Positions 503-4,548 of a DNA stretch of 64,000 nt are shown here, one piece after another. The notes under the pieces are model-generated. The model ran no database searches and was not told the origin of the DNA. It was given only the letters and a program-made list of their open reading frames with translations. A program made the translations under genes and the position numbers. Positions within the stretch are counted from its first letter, which is position 1, and each line of letters begins with the position of its first letter. The stretch is from Sphingomonas sp. C3-2 (lineage in GTDB: Bacteria; Pseudomonadota; Alphaproteobacteria; Sphingomonadales; Sphingomonadaceae): assembly GCF_033025475.1 (NCBI RefSeq), contig NZ_CP130322.1:496001-560000 (forward strand). The letters run 5' to 3'.

Positions 503-1543
503 CTATGGCAATTCGTGCCGCTTGAGCGCGTGACGCAACTGATCATAGCTCAGGTTGAGGCTTTTCGCGGTCGCCCGCTGGTTGAAGCGATTATGGGCGA
601 GCGCCGCCTCCAGGATCGCGCGTTCATGCGCATCGACCGCCTGTTTCAGATCGCCCACCAGATGCAGTTCGGTTGCGGGCGATGATGTCGGCGCGGTGGC
701 GACACGCACCGCCCCCTCCTCCGCGCGCTCCACTTCCTGCGTCACGCTGCCCGGCATCGGCCGCGAATGCCAGGGCGTGGCGAAGGGATCGAAGATGATC
801 GCATCGACCGCGCGTTCGGGATCGTCCCAGCGGTAAACCGCGCGTTCGACCACATTGCGCAGTTCGCGGACATTGCCCGGCCAGTCATGGCTGACGAGCT
901 GCGCTGCGGCGGTTTCCGAAAAACCCGGCCAGCGTTCCCAGCCCAACTCGGCGGCCATGCGCCGCCCGAAATGATTGGCGAGCACGGGCACATCCCCTTC
1001 GCGGACACGCAGCGGCGGGAGCGAGATCACCTCGAAGCTCAGCCGATCCAGAAGGTCGGCGCGGAACCGGCCTTTATCGACCATGGCCGGCAGATTTTCA
1101 TTGGTGGCGGCGACGATGCGAACATCGACCCGGATCGGATGACTGGAGCCGATGCGCGTCACCTCGCCATATTCGACCGTGCGAAGCAGCCGTTCCTGCG
1201 CCCCTTGCGACAAGGTGCCGAGTTCGTCGAGGAACAGCGTGCCGCCATCGGCTTCCTCGAACCGCCCGGCGCGCGCGCGGGTGGCGCCGGTAAAGGCGCC
1301 CGCCTCATGCCCGAACAGTTCGGCCTCGATCAGCGTTTCGGGAAGGGCTGCACAGTTCATGATGACGAGCGGCCCGTCCCACCGCGGGCTGAGGCGGTGC
1401 AGACGTTCGGCAACCAGTTCCTTGCCGGTACCCCGCTCGCCGATCACCAGCACGGGACGGTTGAGCGCCGCCGCGCGGCTTGCCCGCTCGACGGAATCGA
1501 GAAAGGCCAGCGACTGGCCGATGAAATGACTTTCGCGCTCCAT
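503..1543 (-). CDS. pspF: PspF, sigma-54-dependent activator of the phage-shock operon
   Basis: Enhancer-binding AAA+ protein that remodels sigma-54 RNA polymerase at the psp promoter; in the known system PspA holds it inactive until the inner membrane is damaged. From the chosen ATG at 1543 it is 346 residues: Walker A GERGTGKE (about 35-42), the sigma-54 contact loop GAFTGA (82-87), Walker B TLFLDE (102-107), and a Fis-type helix-turn-helix at the C terminus. It has no receiver or other sensor domain, as expected for PspF. The open frame continues upstream to 1672, but that extension would run through the divergent sigma-54 promoter and does not resemble the family. It is transcribed away from the psp operon. 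Confidence 0.92.
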
Positions 1544-1715
1544 TCCCAAGATTAGGGATATTTCCCAAAATTTGGCAATACTCACCAACTCAGAATAATG
1601 TAAATTATGCAAAATATCCCGAAAAATGGAGCTTTTCAAAAACTGGCACGCATCCTGCTTAGTTGAGAACAACTGCTTCTACGGAAGTGCAAATCAAAGG
1701 TTCAGGGAGGCCATT
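1544..1715. promoter_or_regulatory. pspF / psp operon divergent control region
   Basis: This 172-base AT-richer interval separates the start of pspF from the first gene of the psp operon. It holds the sigma-54 promoter at 1644-1658 and, upstream of it, the stretch where PspF enhancer sites would be expected. A near-palindrome GGGATATTTCCC lies at 1555-1566 and a related ATATCCC at 1614-1620; these are candidate activator half-sites, but no PspF consensus is certain for this group. The region between is AT-rich enough to bend or bind IHF. Function of the individual boxes is inferred. Confidence 0.55.
1644..1658 (+). promoter_or_regulatory. Sigma-54 (-24/-12) promoter of the psp operon
   Basis: TGGCACG at 1644-1650 followed by CTGCTT at 1655-1660 matches the sigma-54 consensus TGGCAC-N5-TTGC. 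The invariant GG (1645-1646) and GC (1657-1658) are separated by exactly ten bases, as required. Transcription would begin near 1670, about 45 bases before the first start codon. The divergent PspF gene supplies the matching activator, which makes this one of the firmest regulatory calls in the window. Confidence 0.9.
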
Positions 1716-1961: not shown

Positions 1962-2630
1962 ATGGGAATTTTCTCACGAACCCGCGACATCATCGCCGCC
2001 AACGTCACCGACCTGCTCGACAGGGCGGAAGACCCGGCGAAGATGATCCGCATGATCATCCTCGAGATGGAAGAAACCCTCGTCGAAGTGCGCGCCTCCG
2101 CCGCCCGCACGATTGCCGACCAGAAGGAACTGCGCCGCCACATCCTGAAGCTGGAAAAACTGCAGGACAGCTGGATAGAAAAGGCCGAACTGGCGCTGTC
2201 GAAGGACCGCGAGGACCTGGCCAAGGCCGCGCTCGTCGAAAAGCAAAAGGCCGCCGACATGGGCGACCAGCTGAAGCACGAGATCGCGACGCTCGATGAA
2301 TCGCTGCGCGCGTACGAGGAAGACATCTCGAAGCTTCAGGGCAAGCTGCGCGAGGCCCGCGCCCGCCAGAATGCGATCATGACGCGGCTTGAAACCGCGC
2401 AGAACCGTATCCGTGTGCGCGAAGCCTATGCCGGCCAGAAGGTGGAAGAAGCCTTTTCGCGCTTCGAAGTGCTCGAACGCCGCGTCGACTTCGCCGAAGG
2501 CCGCGCCGATGCGCTGAGCCTGGGCGCGCAGCCCAAGACGCTCGAGGAAGAGTTCGCCGAGCTCAAGTCCGCCGAAAAGGTGGAAGCCGAGCTCGCCGCC
2601 CTGAAGGCCCGCGCAAGCAAGGAAGGCTGA
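1962..2630 (+). CDS. pspA: Phage shock protein A
   Basis: PspA/IM30 family peripheral membrane protein that oligomerises on damaged inner membrane, blocks proton leak and, when not membrane-engaged, binds and inhibits PspF. At 222 residues it matches the E. coli protein length. The N terminus MGIFSRTRDIIAANVTDLLD is the amphipathic helix that inserts into lipid, and almost all the rest is heptad-rich alpha-helix (charged E/K/R coiled coil), as in the ESCRT-III-like family. The ATG at 1962 follows CAGGAG at a good distance. It is separated from pspB by one base and belongs to the sigma-54 operon starting near 1670. Confidence 0.97.
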   Translation: MGIFSRTRDIIAANVTDLLDRAEDPAKMIRMIILEMEETLVEVRASAARTIADQKELRRHILKLEKLQDSWIEKAELALSKDREDLAKAALVEKQKAADMGDQLKHEIATLDESLRAYEEDISKLQGKLREARARQNAIMTRLETAQNRIRVREAYAGQKVEEAFSRFEVLERRVDFAEGRADALSLGAQPKTLEEEFAELKSAEKVEAELAALKARASKEG

Positions 2631-2631
2631 T

Positions 2632-2901
2632 ATGGAAGAGGTACTCGTCCCGATTTTCGTCGTCGGCTTCCTCTTCATCGGGATGCCCTGGCTGATCCTC
2701 CACTATGTGACCCAGTGGAAGCGCGCCGGCAGCATCACCCGCGAGGACGAAAACCTGCTCGACGAAATGCACGACACCGCCCGGCGGCTGGAGGAACGGC
2801 TGCACACGATCGAACGGATCATCGCAGCCGACAACCCCAACTGGAAGTCGGGGGAGCTTGGCGCCCCCTCCTCCATCACCCGCCCCGACCAGCGGCACTG
2901 A
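2632..2901 (+). CDS. pspB: Phage shock protein B
   Basis: Small inner-membrane protein of the Psp signalling relay that, with PspC, recruits PspA away from PspF. It has 89 residues: a single N-terminal membrane helix (about 5-27, VLVPIFVVGFLFIGMPWLIL), then a charged helix with heptads around DENLLDEMHDTARRLEERL and ending in IERIIAADNPNW. The E. coli protein is about 74 residues, so the C terminus is somewhat longer. The start follows pspA by one base, indicating translational coupling. The tail motif resembles those of the four small proteins farther downstream. Confidence 0.93.
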   Translation: MEEVLVPIFVVGFLFIGMPWLILHYVTQWKRAGSITREDENLLDEMHDTARRLEERLHTIERIIAADNPNWKSGELGAPSSITRPDQRH

Positions 2902-2940: not shown

Positions 2941-3321
2941 ATGTCCGCCAGCCGCACCAAATTCTACCTCGACAAGCAGAACGCCAAGTGGATGGGCGTG
3001 TGCGCGGGGATCGCCGACTATACCGGGATCGATGTCACCTGGGTGCGCATCGGCATGGTGCTCGTCACCCTGATGGGTGGCTTTCCCTGGACGCTGATCG
3101 CCTATTTCGTAGCCGGCTGGGTAGCCGATGCGAAGCCGAGCGGCCTGTATACCAGCGCCGAGGACGCCAAGTTCTGGCAGGGCGTGCGCCAGTCTCCGGC
3201 GCGCAGCACCCGCGATGTCCGCGCCAAGTTCCGCGAGATCGATCGCCGTCTGGCCGATGTCGAAACCTATTACACCGCCAGCAATTCGAGCCTGGCCAAG
3301 GAAATCGACAGCCTGCGCTGA
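2941..3321 (+). CDS. pspC: Phage shock protein C (PspC domain)
   Basis: Inner-membrane partner of PspB in sensing envelope stress. The 126-residue protein opens with the PspC domain (FYLDKQNAKWMGVCAGIADY, about 6-26), followed by a short hydrophobic pair of helices (about 35-62, including GGFPWTLIAYFVAGW), and ends with a cytoplasmic or periplasmic helical tail to residue 126 that carries ETYYTASNSSLAKEIDSLR. A ribosome site (AAGGAGAG) precedes the ATG at 2941. The helical tail is again similar to the ends of the next genes, suggesting a shared assembly surface. The topology is predicted only from hydrophobicity. Confidence 0.93.
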   Translation: MSASRTKFYLDKQNAKWMGVCAGIADYTGIDVTWVRIGMVLVTLMGGFPWTLIAYFVAGWVADAKPSGLYTSAEDAKFWQGVRQSPARSTRDVRAKFREIDRRLADVETYYTASNSSLAKEIDSLR

Positions 3322-3356: not shown

Positions 3357-3644
3357 ATGTTCCAGGGACCGATATTCGTGATCGCGATCGTGGCGATCTG
3401 CATCGGCGGCTGGCTGGTCTCGACATGGATCCGCGCAAAGCACGGTTATCCCATCGAAAATGAATGGGGTGGCACCGTTGATCGAAAAGATCCTGACGCT
3501 GATCGAAAAATACAACTGCTTTCGAGCGAAAACGAACATCTGAAGGCGCAGCTGCTGAGGCTTGAGGAACGCATCTCGGTGCTTGAGCGGATCGCCACCG
3601 ATCCCGCCGAACGCACCGCCCGCGAAATCGACGCACTCCGCTGA
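3357..3644 (+). CDS. PspB-like small membrane coiled-coil protein 1 of the extended psp operon
   Basis: A 95-residue protein with one N-terminal membrane helix (about 4-24, PIFVIAIVAICIGGWLVSTW), a linker containing RAKHGYPIENEWGG, and a C-terminal leucine-rich helix ending ISVLERIATDPAERTAREID. The ATG at 3357 is used because GGGAGA lies six bases upstream; an in-frame GTG at 3351 would leave no spacing. It is a close architectural match of the next gene, including the W-x-x-x-K-x-G-Y-P turn, so the two are probably tandem duplicates. The lay-out resembles PspB. Role inferred: auxiliary membrane component of the Psp response. Confidence 0.8.
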   Translation: MFQGPIFVIAIVAICIGGWLVSTWIRAKHGYPIENEWGGTVDRKDPDADRKIQLLSSENEHLKAQLLRLEERISVLERIATDPAERTAREIDALR

Positions 3645-3672
3645 TCGCCGGACGCAAGGGAGGAACGAAAAA

Positions 3673-3993
3673 ATGGACAAGATCGCGCTTTTCGAAACGC
3701 TTGCCCCCGCCGGAATGGTGATTGGCGCGATGGCGATCGCTGGATGGGTGCTCACCACCTGGCTCAGGGTGAAGAACGGTTATCCGCTGGACGGCGCCTG
3801 GGGCCAGGCCGTCTATCCGAAGCGGAACGACGAGGCGCTCGAGCGTATCAAGCTGCTGACCCAGGAAAATGCGCAGCTGCGCGCCGAACTGGGATCGATC
3901 AAGGACCGGATGGCCAATGTCGAGCGGATCGTCACCGATGAGGCGCACAGCCTCAATCGCGAGATCGAAGCGCTGCGCGGCCGGGCCAACTGA
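3673..3993 (+). CDS. PspB-like small membrane coiled-coil protein 2 of the extended psp operon
   Basis: A 106-residue paralogue of the preceding gene: membrane helix about 11-32 (APAGMVIGAMAIAGWVLTTW), the same RVKNGYPLDGAWGQ turn, and a coiled-coil tail with LTQENAQLRAELGSIKDRM and ending MANVERIVTDEAHSLNREIE. The ATG at 3673 follows GGAGGAACG. It lies 28 bases after its neighbour and 23 before the next gene, consistent with one transcript. The shared VERI(A/V)TD-x-A-x(n)-REIEALR end makes homology with the neighbours clear. No catalytic residues are seen; a structural or sensory role at the membrane is inferred. Confidence 0.8.
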   Translation: MDKIALFETLAPAGMVIGAMAIAGWVLTTWLRVKNGYPLDGAWGQAVYPKRNDEALERIKLLTQENAQLRAELGSIKDRMANVERIVTDEAHSLNREIEALRGRAN

Positions 3994-4016
3994 TAAAGAC
4001 AAGATCTGGGAGACGA

Positions 4017-4271
4017 ATGATGGGACCTTTTGAAATGGTGGTGTTGATCGTGGCGATCGTCACGGTCGGCAAGATCATCCAGGTTCGACACAAGCATGGG
4101 CAGGACTGGAAGGGCAATGCGGTCGCGACGGACGATCCCGAAGCCACCCGCCTGCGCGAGGAAGTGCGCACGCTGAAGGAACGCGTCGCGGTTCTGGAGC
4201 GGCTGGCGACCGACGATACCAGCAGCCTTGAACGCGAAATCGAAAAGCTGCGCGAACGGGATCGGGCCTGA
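4017..4271 (+). CDS. PspB-like small membrane coiled-coil protein 3 of the extended psp operon
   Basis: An 84-residue protein with a short membrane helix at 3-20 (GPFEMVVLIVAIVTVGKII), a polar linker, and a C-terminal coiled coil reading LREEVRTLKERVAVLERL followed by ATDDTSSLEREIEKLRER. The LERLATD-x(5)-LEREIE end is the same as in the two preceding proteins. Two ATG codons (4017 and 4020) follow GGGAG at 4008-4012; either is possible and the difference is one residue. It lacks the GYP turn. Likely part of the same stress-induced membrane assembly. Confidence 0.78.
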   Translation: MMGPFEMVVLIVAIVTVGKIIQVRHKHGQDWKGNAVATDDPEATRLREEVRTLKERVAVLERLATDDTSSLEREIEKLRERDRA

Positions 4272-4308
4272 TCTTCAGGCCCCCCGGAGAGGAAATGGGG
4301 ATAAGACC

Positions 4309-4548
4309 ATGAGTGACCTGACGCTATATGCCACCATTGCGCTAAGCAGCCTGGCTGCCATCGCCATGCTGACCACCGCGGCGCTGAAAGGCTGGACCGG
4401 CTGGCTCGAGCTGAAGCGCAGCGAACTGCAGCAGCAGCAAAGCCGGTTCGATGCGCCCACCGGCCATGCCGGATCGCGCATCGAGATCGCCGATCTCAAG
4501 GAACGCATCCGCAAGCTCGAGGCGATCGCCGCAGGCGTGGAGCTTTAA
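4309..4548 (+). CDS. Small membrane protein 4 of the extended psp operon
   Basis: The last gene of the apparent psp transcript, 79 residues, with a membrane helix at about 5-30 (TLYATIALSSLAAIAMLTTAAL) and a short C-terminal helix IEIADLKERIRKLEAIAAGV that matches the coiled-coil ends of the three preceding proteins more loosely. The ATG at 4309 is in frame to the stop at 4548 and follows GGAGAGGAAATGGGGATAAG. A glutamine-rich stretch (ELQQQQS) links the two parts. The next gene, sufE, starts 70 bases later and is probably a separate unit. Confidence 0.72.
   Translation: MSDLTLYATIALSSLAAIAMLTTAALKGWTGWLELKRSELQQQQSRFDAPTGHAGSRIEIADLKERIRKLEAIAAGVEL

Follow-up and report, generated by a model that had tools for sequence, protein, structure and literature searches.

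Knowledge of the Psp response comes mostly from the minimal PspA-PspB-PspC set of enterobacteria, and to our knowledge there is no settled account of how PspB and PspC perceive damage. Sphingomonads are degraders of solvents and pollutants, for which membrane stress is a central matter. The protein AOL22920.1, cited below, is presumably from a member of the Sphingomonadaceae.

E. coli PspB associates with itself and with PspC by way of membrane parts (PMC3068692). The leucine zipper of PspC is required both for the interaction with PspA and for induction, and the PspC fragment 69-119, together with PspB, interacts with PspA; the topology of the PspC tail is under debate in the same study (PMC3068692). 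Duplicates of PspB occur in some psp operons, AOL22920.1 being an example, and a divergent PspB can form the C-terminal end of PspC (Ravi et al. 2024, PMC11237479). The available portion of the main text of that survey devotes one sentence to the subject and does so without orthogroups, copy numbers, taxonomic extent, a PspC-type tail or co-loss. Orthogroups, copy number and co-loss are likewise missing from the accessible main text of a 2022 survey of Psp systems (PMC9239133), in which sphingomonads are not mentioned. A literature search of partial coverage retrieved no study of psp in sphingomonads.

The locus described here contains four genes, D1 to D4, that follow pspC in tandem. With a probability that we put at roughly 55%, they encode a family of single-transmembrane (TM) proteins that are homologous to PspB and to the tail of PspC, that belong to the distal part of the psp operon and whose tails serve as modules contacting PspA or PspB/PspC.

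The psp locus and its distal genes

The window, that is, the entire 64-kb stretch of DNA that was analysed, spans positions 496001-560000 of a 3.53-Mb genome consisting of one contig (G000:C1). The gene order is superoxide dismutase and pspF, both on the minus strand, followed by a leader peptide gene, pspA, pspB, pspC, D1-D4 and sufE (Table 1). Beyond sufE come genes for a ferredoxin-like protein and for a J-domain protein on the minus strand. The likely start of pspF is the ATG at 1543, although the open frame extends to 1672.

Table 1. Features of the psp locus; positions are those of the window
Feature	Position	Strand	Characteristics
pspF, sigma-54 activator	503..1543	-	TIGR02974, 484.6 bits (cut-off 443.55)
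Sigma-54-type -24/-12 site	1644..1659	+	TGGCACGCATCCTGCT, 1 mismatch; upstream of the psp genes
Leader peptide, 53 aa	1716..1877	+	N-terminal hydrophobic/signal segment; first gene of the operon
pspA	1962..2630	+	TIGR02977, 281.4 bits, above cut-off; PF04012, E 5e-38
pspB	2632..2901	+	TIGR02976, 80.3 bits (cut-off 51.7)
pspC	2941..3321	+	TIGR02978, 128.4 bits (cut-off 104); C-terminal tail EIDRRLADVETYYTASNSSLAKEIDSLR
D1, 95 aa	3357..3644	+	TM helix, KHGYP turn, coiled-coil tail with REIDALR end
D2, 106 aa	3673..3993	+	TM helix, KNGYPLDGAWGQAVYPK turn, coiled-coil tail; best-conserved member
D3 (orthogroup D3b), 84 aa	4017..4271	+	TM helix and tail; nearest to PspB
D4, 79 aa	4309..4548	+	TM helix and short tail LKERIRKLEAIAAGVEL; mostly last in the array

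The four plus-strand open reading frames that the initial annotation had read as an extension of the psp operon are present. Each is preceded by an SD-like sequence, and the intergenic gaps are short, with 35 nt after pspC, 28 after D1, 23 after D2 and 37 after D3. Co-directional, closely spaced genes downstream of pspABC together with a divergent pspF give the locus the layout of a psp operon that includes D1-D4. A search of the plus strand from pspC to sufE revealed no terminator, and nothing in the sequence ends a transcript before 3357, in agreement with the earlier view that the operon continues past pspC. Cotranscription of the psp genes through D4 is likely. A -24/-12 site with at most one mismatch was found in 57 of 81 pspA upstream regions, that of the window included, as compared with 6 of 1620 shuffled sequences; taken singly, the site in the window is at chance level (16 sigma-54-type matches with up to two mismatches in the window versus 32.6 expected).

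Relationship of the D proteins to each other and to PspB and PspC

An N-terminal membrane helix followed by a C-terminal helix, as had been proposed for all four proteins, draws support from AlphaFold2 modelling of D2 and D4. The D2 model consists of helices H2-34 and H53-102 (mean pLDDT 76), with a low-confidence loop at the KxGYP region between the membrane helix and the long helix, and the D4 model comprises two helices, H2-47 and H55-74 (mean pLDDT 84). The related ends that had been noticed in three of the proteins are those of D1 (LERIATD), D2 (VERIVTD) and D3 (LERLATD), and the KxGYP turn reported for two is RAKHGYP in D1 and RVKNGYP in D2.

Comparison of the family alignments by hhalign yielded E-values of 8e-32 for D1-D2, 1.6e-24 for D1-D3b and 2e-19 for D2-D3b, as against 1e-3 to 1e-2 for the reversed controls of the D1-D3 comparisons. 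The tails of the window proteins match in each pair (D1-D2, D1-D3, D2-D3) over 28 ungapped residues at the lowest value attainable with 500 shuffles preserving the hydrophobic pattern (p = 0.002). D1, D2 and D3 are true paralogues beyond reasonable doubt. D4, the weakest member of the family, is devoid of the second half of the tail; it is linked to the profiles of D3a and D3b, two orthogroups described below, at 93-94% probability and more weakly to D1 and D2. The mutual homology within the D family exceeds what coiled-coil composition accounts for, being strong among D1-D3 and moderate for D4 by way of D3a/D3b. The conserved tail positions (R, E, I and L, and nearly T and R) all fall within the last 25 residues, and most of them are generic coiled-coil residues. 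Pfam scans of single D sequences returned a mixture of coiled-coil names (bZIP, ZapB, DUF4164) and were discarded as evidence. A sequence search of the PDB with the D profile retrieved nothing but coiled coils of a generic kind (influenza HA2, SYNZIP), with E > 0.007, which were judged meaningless, and PspC had no solved relative by sequence.

The profile-profile comparison that the initial annotation had proposed relates the D proteins to each other and D1-D3 to PspB. Against the NCBIfam PspB model (TIGR02976), D3 scored 22.1 bits (E 1.4e-4, residues 5-69) and D1 15.6 bits (E 0.014), both below the cut-off of 51.7; D2 and D4 were not among the matches listed. The tail part of the NCBIfam PspC model matched D2 (E 6.6e-4) and D3 (E 2.4e-3). 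None of D1-D4 reached a curated PspB or PspC cut-off, and D4 matched neither NCBIfam model and remained below 1% probability against PspB or PspC in hhalign. When the whole genome was searched, the PspB model placed PspB first and D3 second at E 9e-4, with the next decoy at 0.23, and the PspC model ranked PspC, another PspC-domain protein and then D2, D3 and PspB (E 0.004-0.04), with the next decoy at 0.4. In hhalign, D1-D3 attained probabilities of 76-94% against PspB, over most of their length, and of 78-95% against the PspC tail. Single pair scores need care because FtsB, a decoy of the same architecture, reached 4-40% against the D profiles (40% with D3b) and the reversed control of D2 against the PspC tail still gave 65-70%; coiled-coil similarity inflates scores. 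Run against the psp proteins of E. coli alone, without decoys, the D3b model (E 7.6e-5) and the D3a model (E 8.8e-4) found PspB, with E-values scaled to a proteome of 4300 proteins. Judged from these profiles, D1-D3 are homologous to PspB and to the PspC tail, at a lower strength than to each other.

By eye, D1 RLEERISVLERI resembles PspB RLEERLHTIERI, and the subsequent D1 segment T.......EI..LR resembles T.......EI.SLR of PspC. The D tails therefore combine a PspB-like first half with a second half otherwise confined to PspC. The earlier description of the proteins as PspB-like is borne out by the D1-D3 profiles, although even D3 misses the family cut-off. The claimed match to the tails of PspB and PspC applies to D1-D3, where it is weaker than their mutual match, but does not extend to D4, which has no direct significant match. 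In the shared tail, the first half is of the PspB kind, but the second corresponds to PspC and not to PspB.

Like PspB (TIGR02976/PF06667), the D proteins are small, possess an N-terminal TM helix and a C-terminal coiled coil (RLEERL..IERI) and are encoded in the psp operon, and D3 aligns over residues 5-70 of 75. Unlike the PspB proteins of E. coli and of the window, D1-D4 have no C-terminal (H/N)PNW, and D1-D3 carry the additional PspC-like segment after the coiled coil. With the PspC tail (TIGR02978, positions 74-121 approximately, the part of the model that alone is matched) D1-D3 share an ungapped stretch of 28 residues that ends in EI(D/E).LR and contains about 9-11 identities. However, the D proteins lack the PspC domain proper (TIGR02978/PF04024; a cryptic TM plus a TM), and their tail is attached to an unrelated single TM helix. 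PspD and PspG of enterobacteria are comparable in that they, too, are small membrane proteins by which the psp regulon of a particular lineage has been enlarged, but E. coli PspD has no such coiled-coil tail and was not matched by the D models.

Arrays in the Sphingomonadaceae and relatives outside the family

The family is understood here as a GTDB-type family, and the relatives studied are Sphingomonadales (Sphingomonas, Novosphingobium, Sphingopyxis, Erythrobacter and others). The D array comprises 3-9 genes, mostly 4-6, in 80 D2-bearing loci of Sphingomonadaceae, a selection that biases the frequency of D2 among them; loci L001-L030, in which short flanks lowered the D counts, were excluded. 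D4 is the last array gene in 76 of the 80 loci. The gaps within the arrays of relatives have a median of 22 nt, and 96% of the 406 gaps are shorter than 100 nt. A tree divides the array genes into five orthogroups, D1, D2, D3a, D3b and D4, with modest deep support, which is to be expected of proteins this short; D3a is missing from the window and from two congeners. The five orthogroups are old, and they lend substance to the initial view of an expansion of PspB/PspC tails within the psp operon that specialised into distinct types. The largest arrays are those of Sphingosinicella terrae, with nine D genes (three D1, two D2, one D3a, two D3b and one D4), and of a Sphingomonadaceae MAG, with eight (L060/L068).

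Values of dN/dS, obtained from independent close pairs of single-copy orthologues since the all-pairs version was saturated and mixed paralogues, were 0.21 for D2, 0.28 for D1, 0.31 for D4, 0.33 for D3a and 0.39 for D3b, compared with 0.19 for PspA, 0.27 for PspB and 0.21 for PspC. The D genes are under purifying selection, in most cases about as strong as that on PspB.

In an even draw of 200 Sphingomonadaceae genomes, PspA was found in 187 and a match to the D model at E <= 0.01, which can also pick up the PspC tail, in 188. Strong D members occurred in 182 of the 187 PspA-bearing genomes, the other five (G050, G076, G098, G118, G191) containing weak matches alone. The locus of G050 (L222, G050:C2:88500-95500) has intact pspFABC genes, with sufE about 60 nt further on, and no D gene. 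It is the one verified psp locus without an array, and the core psp system there therefore needs no D genes. Among the 13 genomes without a PspA match, 12, from seven genera, yielded no match to the D model; in the remaining one, G083, a six-gene array is cut off by the end of the contig (L223). Inspection by eye of about 45 genomes placed the strong D matches within about 3 kb of pspA. A variable D set in nearly all relatives suggests a family-wide enlargement of the PspBC sensor.

Applied to 385 genomes of the class, the D2 model recognised members in Sphingomonadaceae only, apart from two borderline matches, and a broader D model gave one to three matches in other families of the order, some of them D3-like. 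The psp operon of the sister family f180 (L226-L228) includes a single D gene, which is separated from pspC by a second pspC-like gene, short and tail-less. In other families of the order a D3-like copy is situated outside psp at varied loci, and the neighbours of these orphan genes (L174-L187) include RND pump genes (L177, L186) and an integrase-like gene. Two copies lie near dut (L181/L229, L230) in G380, a genome of a different alphaproteobacterial family, at a distance of about 80 kb from its psp genes. From this distribution, the oldest type is probably a D3-like protein, and the multi-type array is a feature of the Sphingomonadaceae, an order of events deduced from the genomes compared. 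Given the D3-like singletons outside psp operons, duplication of pspB is not the sole possible origin of the array.

Proposed function of the D proteins

Owing to their homology, the D tails are candidates for modules that contact PspA or PspC, and the D proteins are most likely additional subunits, anchored in the membrane, that would bind PspA or one another alongside PspB and PspC. It is proposed that D1-D4 form the distal portion of the PspF/sigma-54-dependent psp transcript and that each protein presents a PspB/PspC-type helical tail, presumably on the cytoplasmic side, on its own membrane helix with its own turn. The tails would act as further modules for PspA binding or for pairing with PspB/PspC. 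When the membrane is stressed, PspA would be retained at the inner membrane by hetero-oligomers that PspB and PspC form with D proteins, and these would also promote the release of PspF. The variable helix and turn may provide each D type with its own partner or stimulus and in this way bring about a division of labour among the types.

In a different scenario, which we regard as rather unlikely, the D proteins are effectors or scaffolds that, like PspD and PspG, anchor PspA oligomers or stabilise the membrane and send no signal to PspF. The genes are distal in the operon and multi-copy, PspF, PspA, PspB and PspC are complete without them in the array-less locus, and a copy number between 3 and 9 would suit a dose-dependent structural role. 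Arguing against a purely structural function is the nature of the conserved part, a tail shared with PspC that in E. coli is tied to PspA interaction and induction (PMC3068692); moreover, five old orthogroups suggest distinct roles and not mere dose.

The origin of the proteins could also be independent of PspB and PspC. An orphan D3-like alphaproteobacterial protein would then have been recruited into the psp operon and multiplied, its function might lie outside the control of PspA, and the likeness to the tails of PspB and PspC would reflect an old common coiled-coil ancestry or convergence. The D3-like singletons at varied loci in other families, for instance next to RND pump genes or near dut, are in keeping with such a course, and the scores of the D proteins with PspB exceed those of the FtsB decoy by 1-4 orders of magnitude only. 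We nevertheless consider it improbable: D and PspA are jointly missing from 12 genomes of seven genera, the single D gene of the sister family resides inside the psp operon, and the PspB and PspC models rank D2 and D3 ahead of the remaining proteins encoded in the genome. Least convincing to us is a negative feedback in which the D tails, having no activating effect, are competitors of PspC for PspA and so damp or reset the response. Synthesis of the D proteins only when the operon is on, after PspA, PspB and PspC, and a PspC-like tail without the PspC domain would agree with titration, but the sequence offers nothing that separates activating from competing tails.

If the D proteins are contact modules of the kind preferred here, a bolder version may be entertained tentatively, namely a modular, expandable sensor array in which one conserved PspA-docking tail is mounted on 3-9 single-TM proteins per genome, each adapted through its membrane helix and turn to a partner or stimulus of its own. 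Were this true, Sphingomonadaceae would sense membrane damage through many parallel inputs and not through a single PspBC pair. Several variants of the PspB/PspC tail exist naturally in the family, each mounted on a separate helix, and their natural gains and losses give 0-9 copies; they constitute a ready experiment for distinguishing the sensing part from the part that contacts PspA.

In a public annotation these genes appear as 'hypothetical protein', so that what seems to be a family-wide component of a well-known system goes unnamed. S. parapaucimobilis displays the same gene order as the window, and its genes lying between pspC and sufE are annotated as hypothetical proteins, as is the gene at the position of the leader peptide. 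In many relatives this position is occupied by an open reading frame of 45-70 aa with one hydrophobic stretch and an end such as ...LA or ...YA; these frames are highly variable in sequence. In S. parapaucimobilis YK209 (L221, NZ_CP155749.1) the entire sod-psp-sufE block is located on a replicon of 880 kb that is registered as a plasmid.
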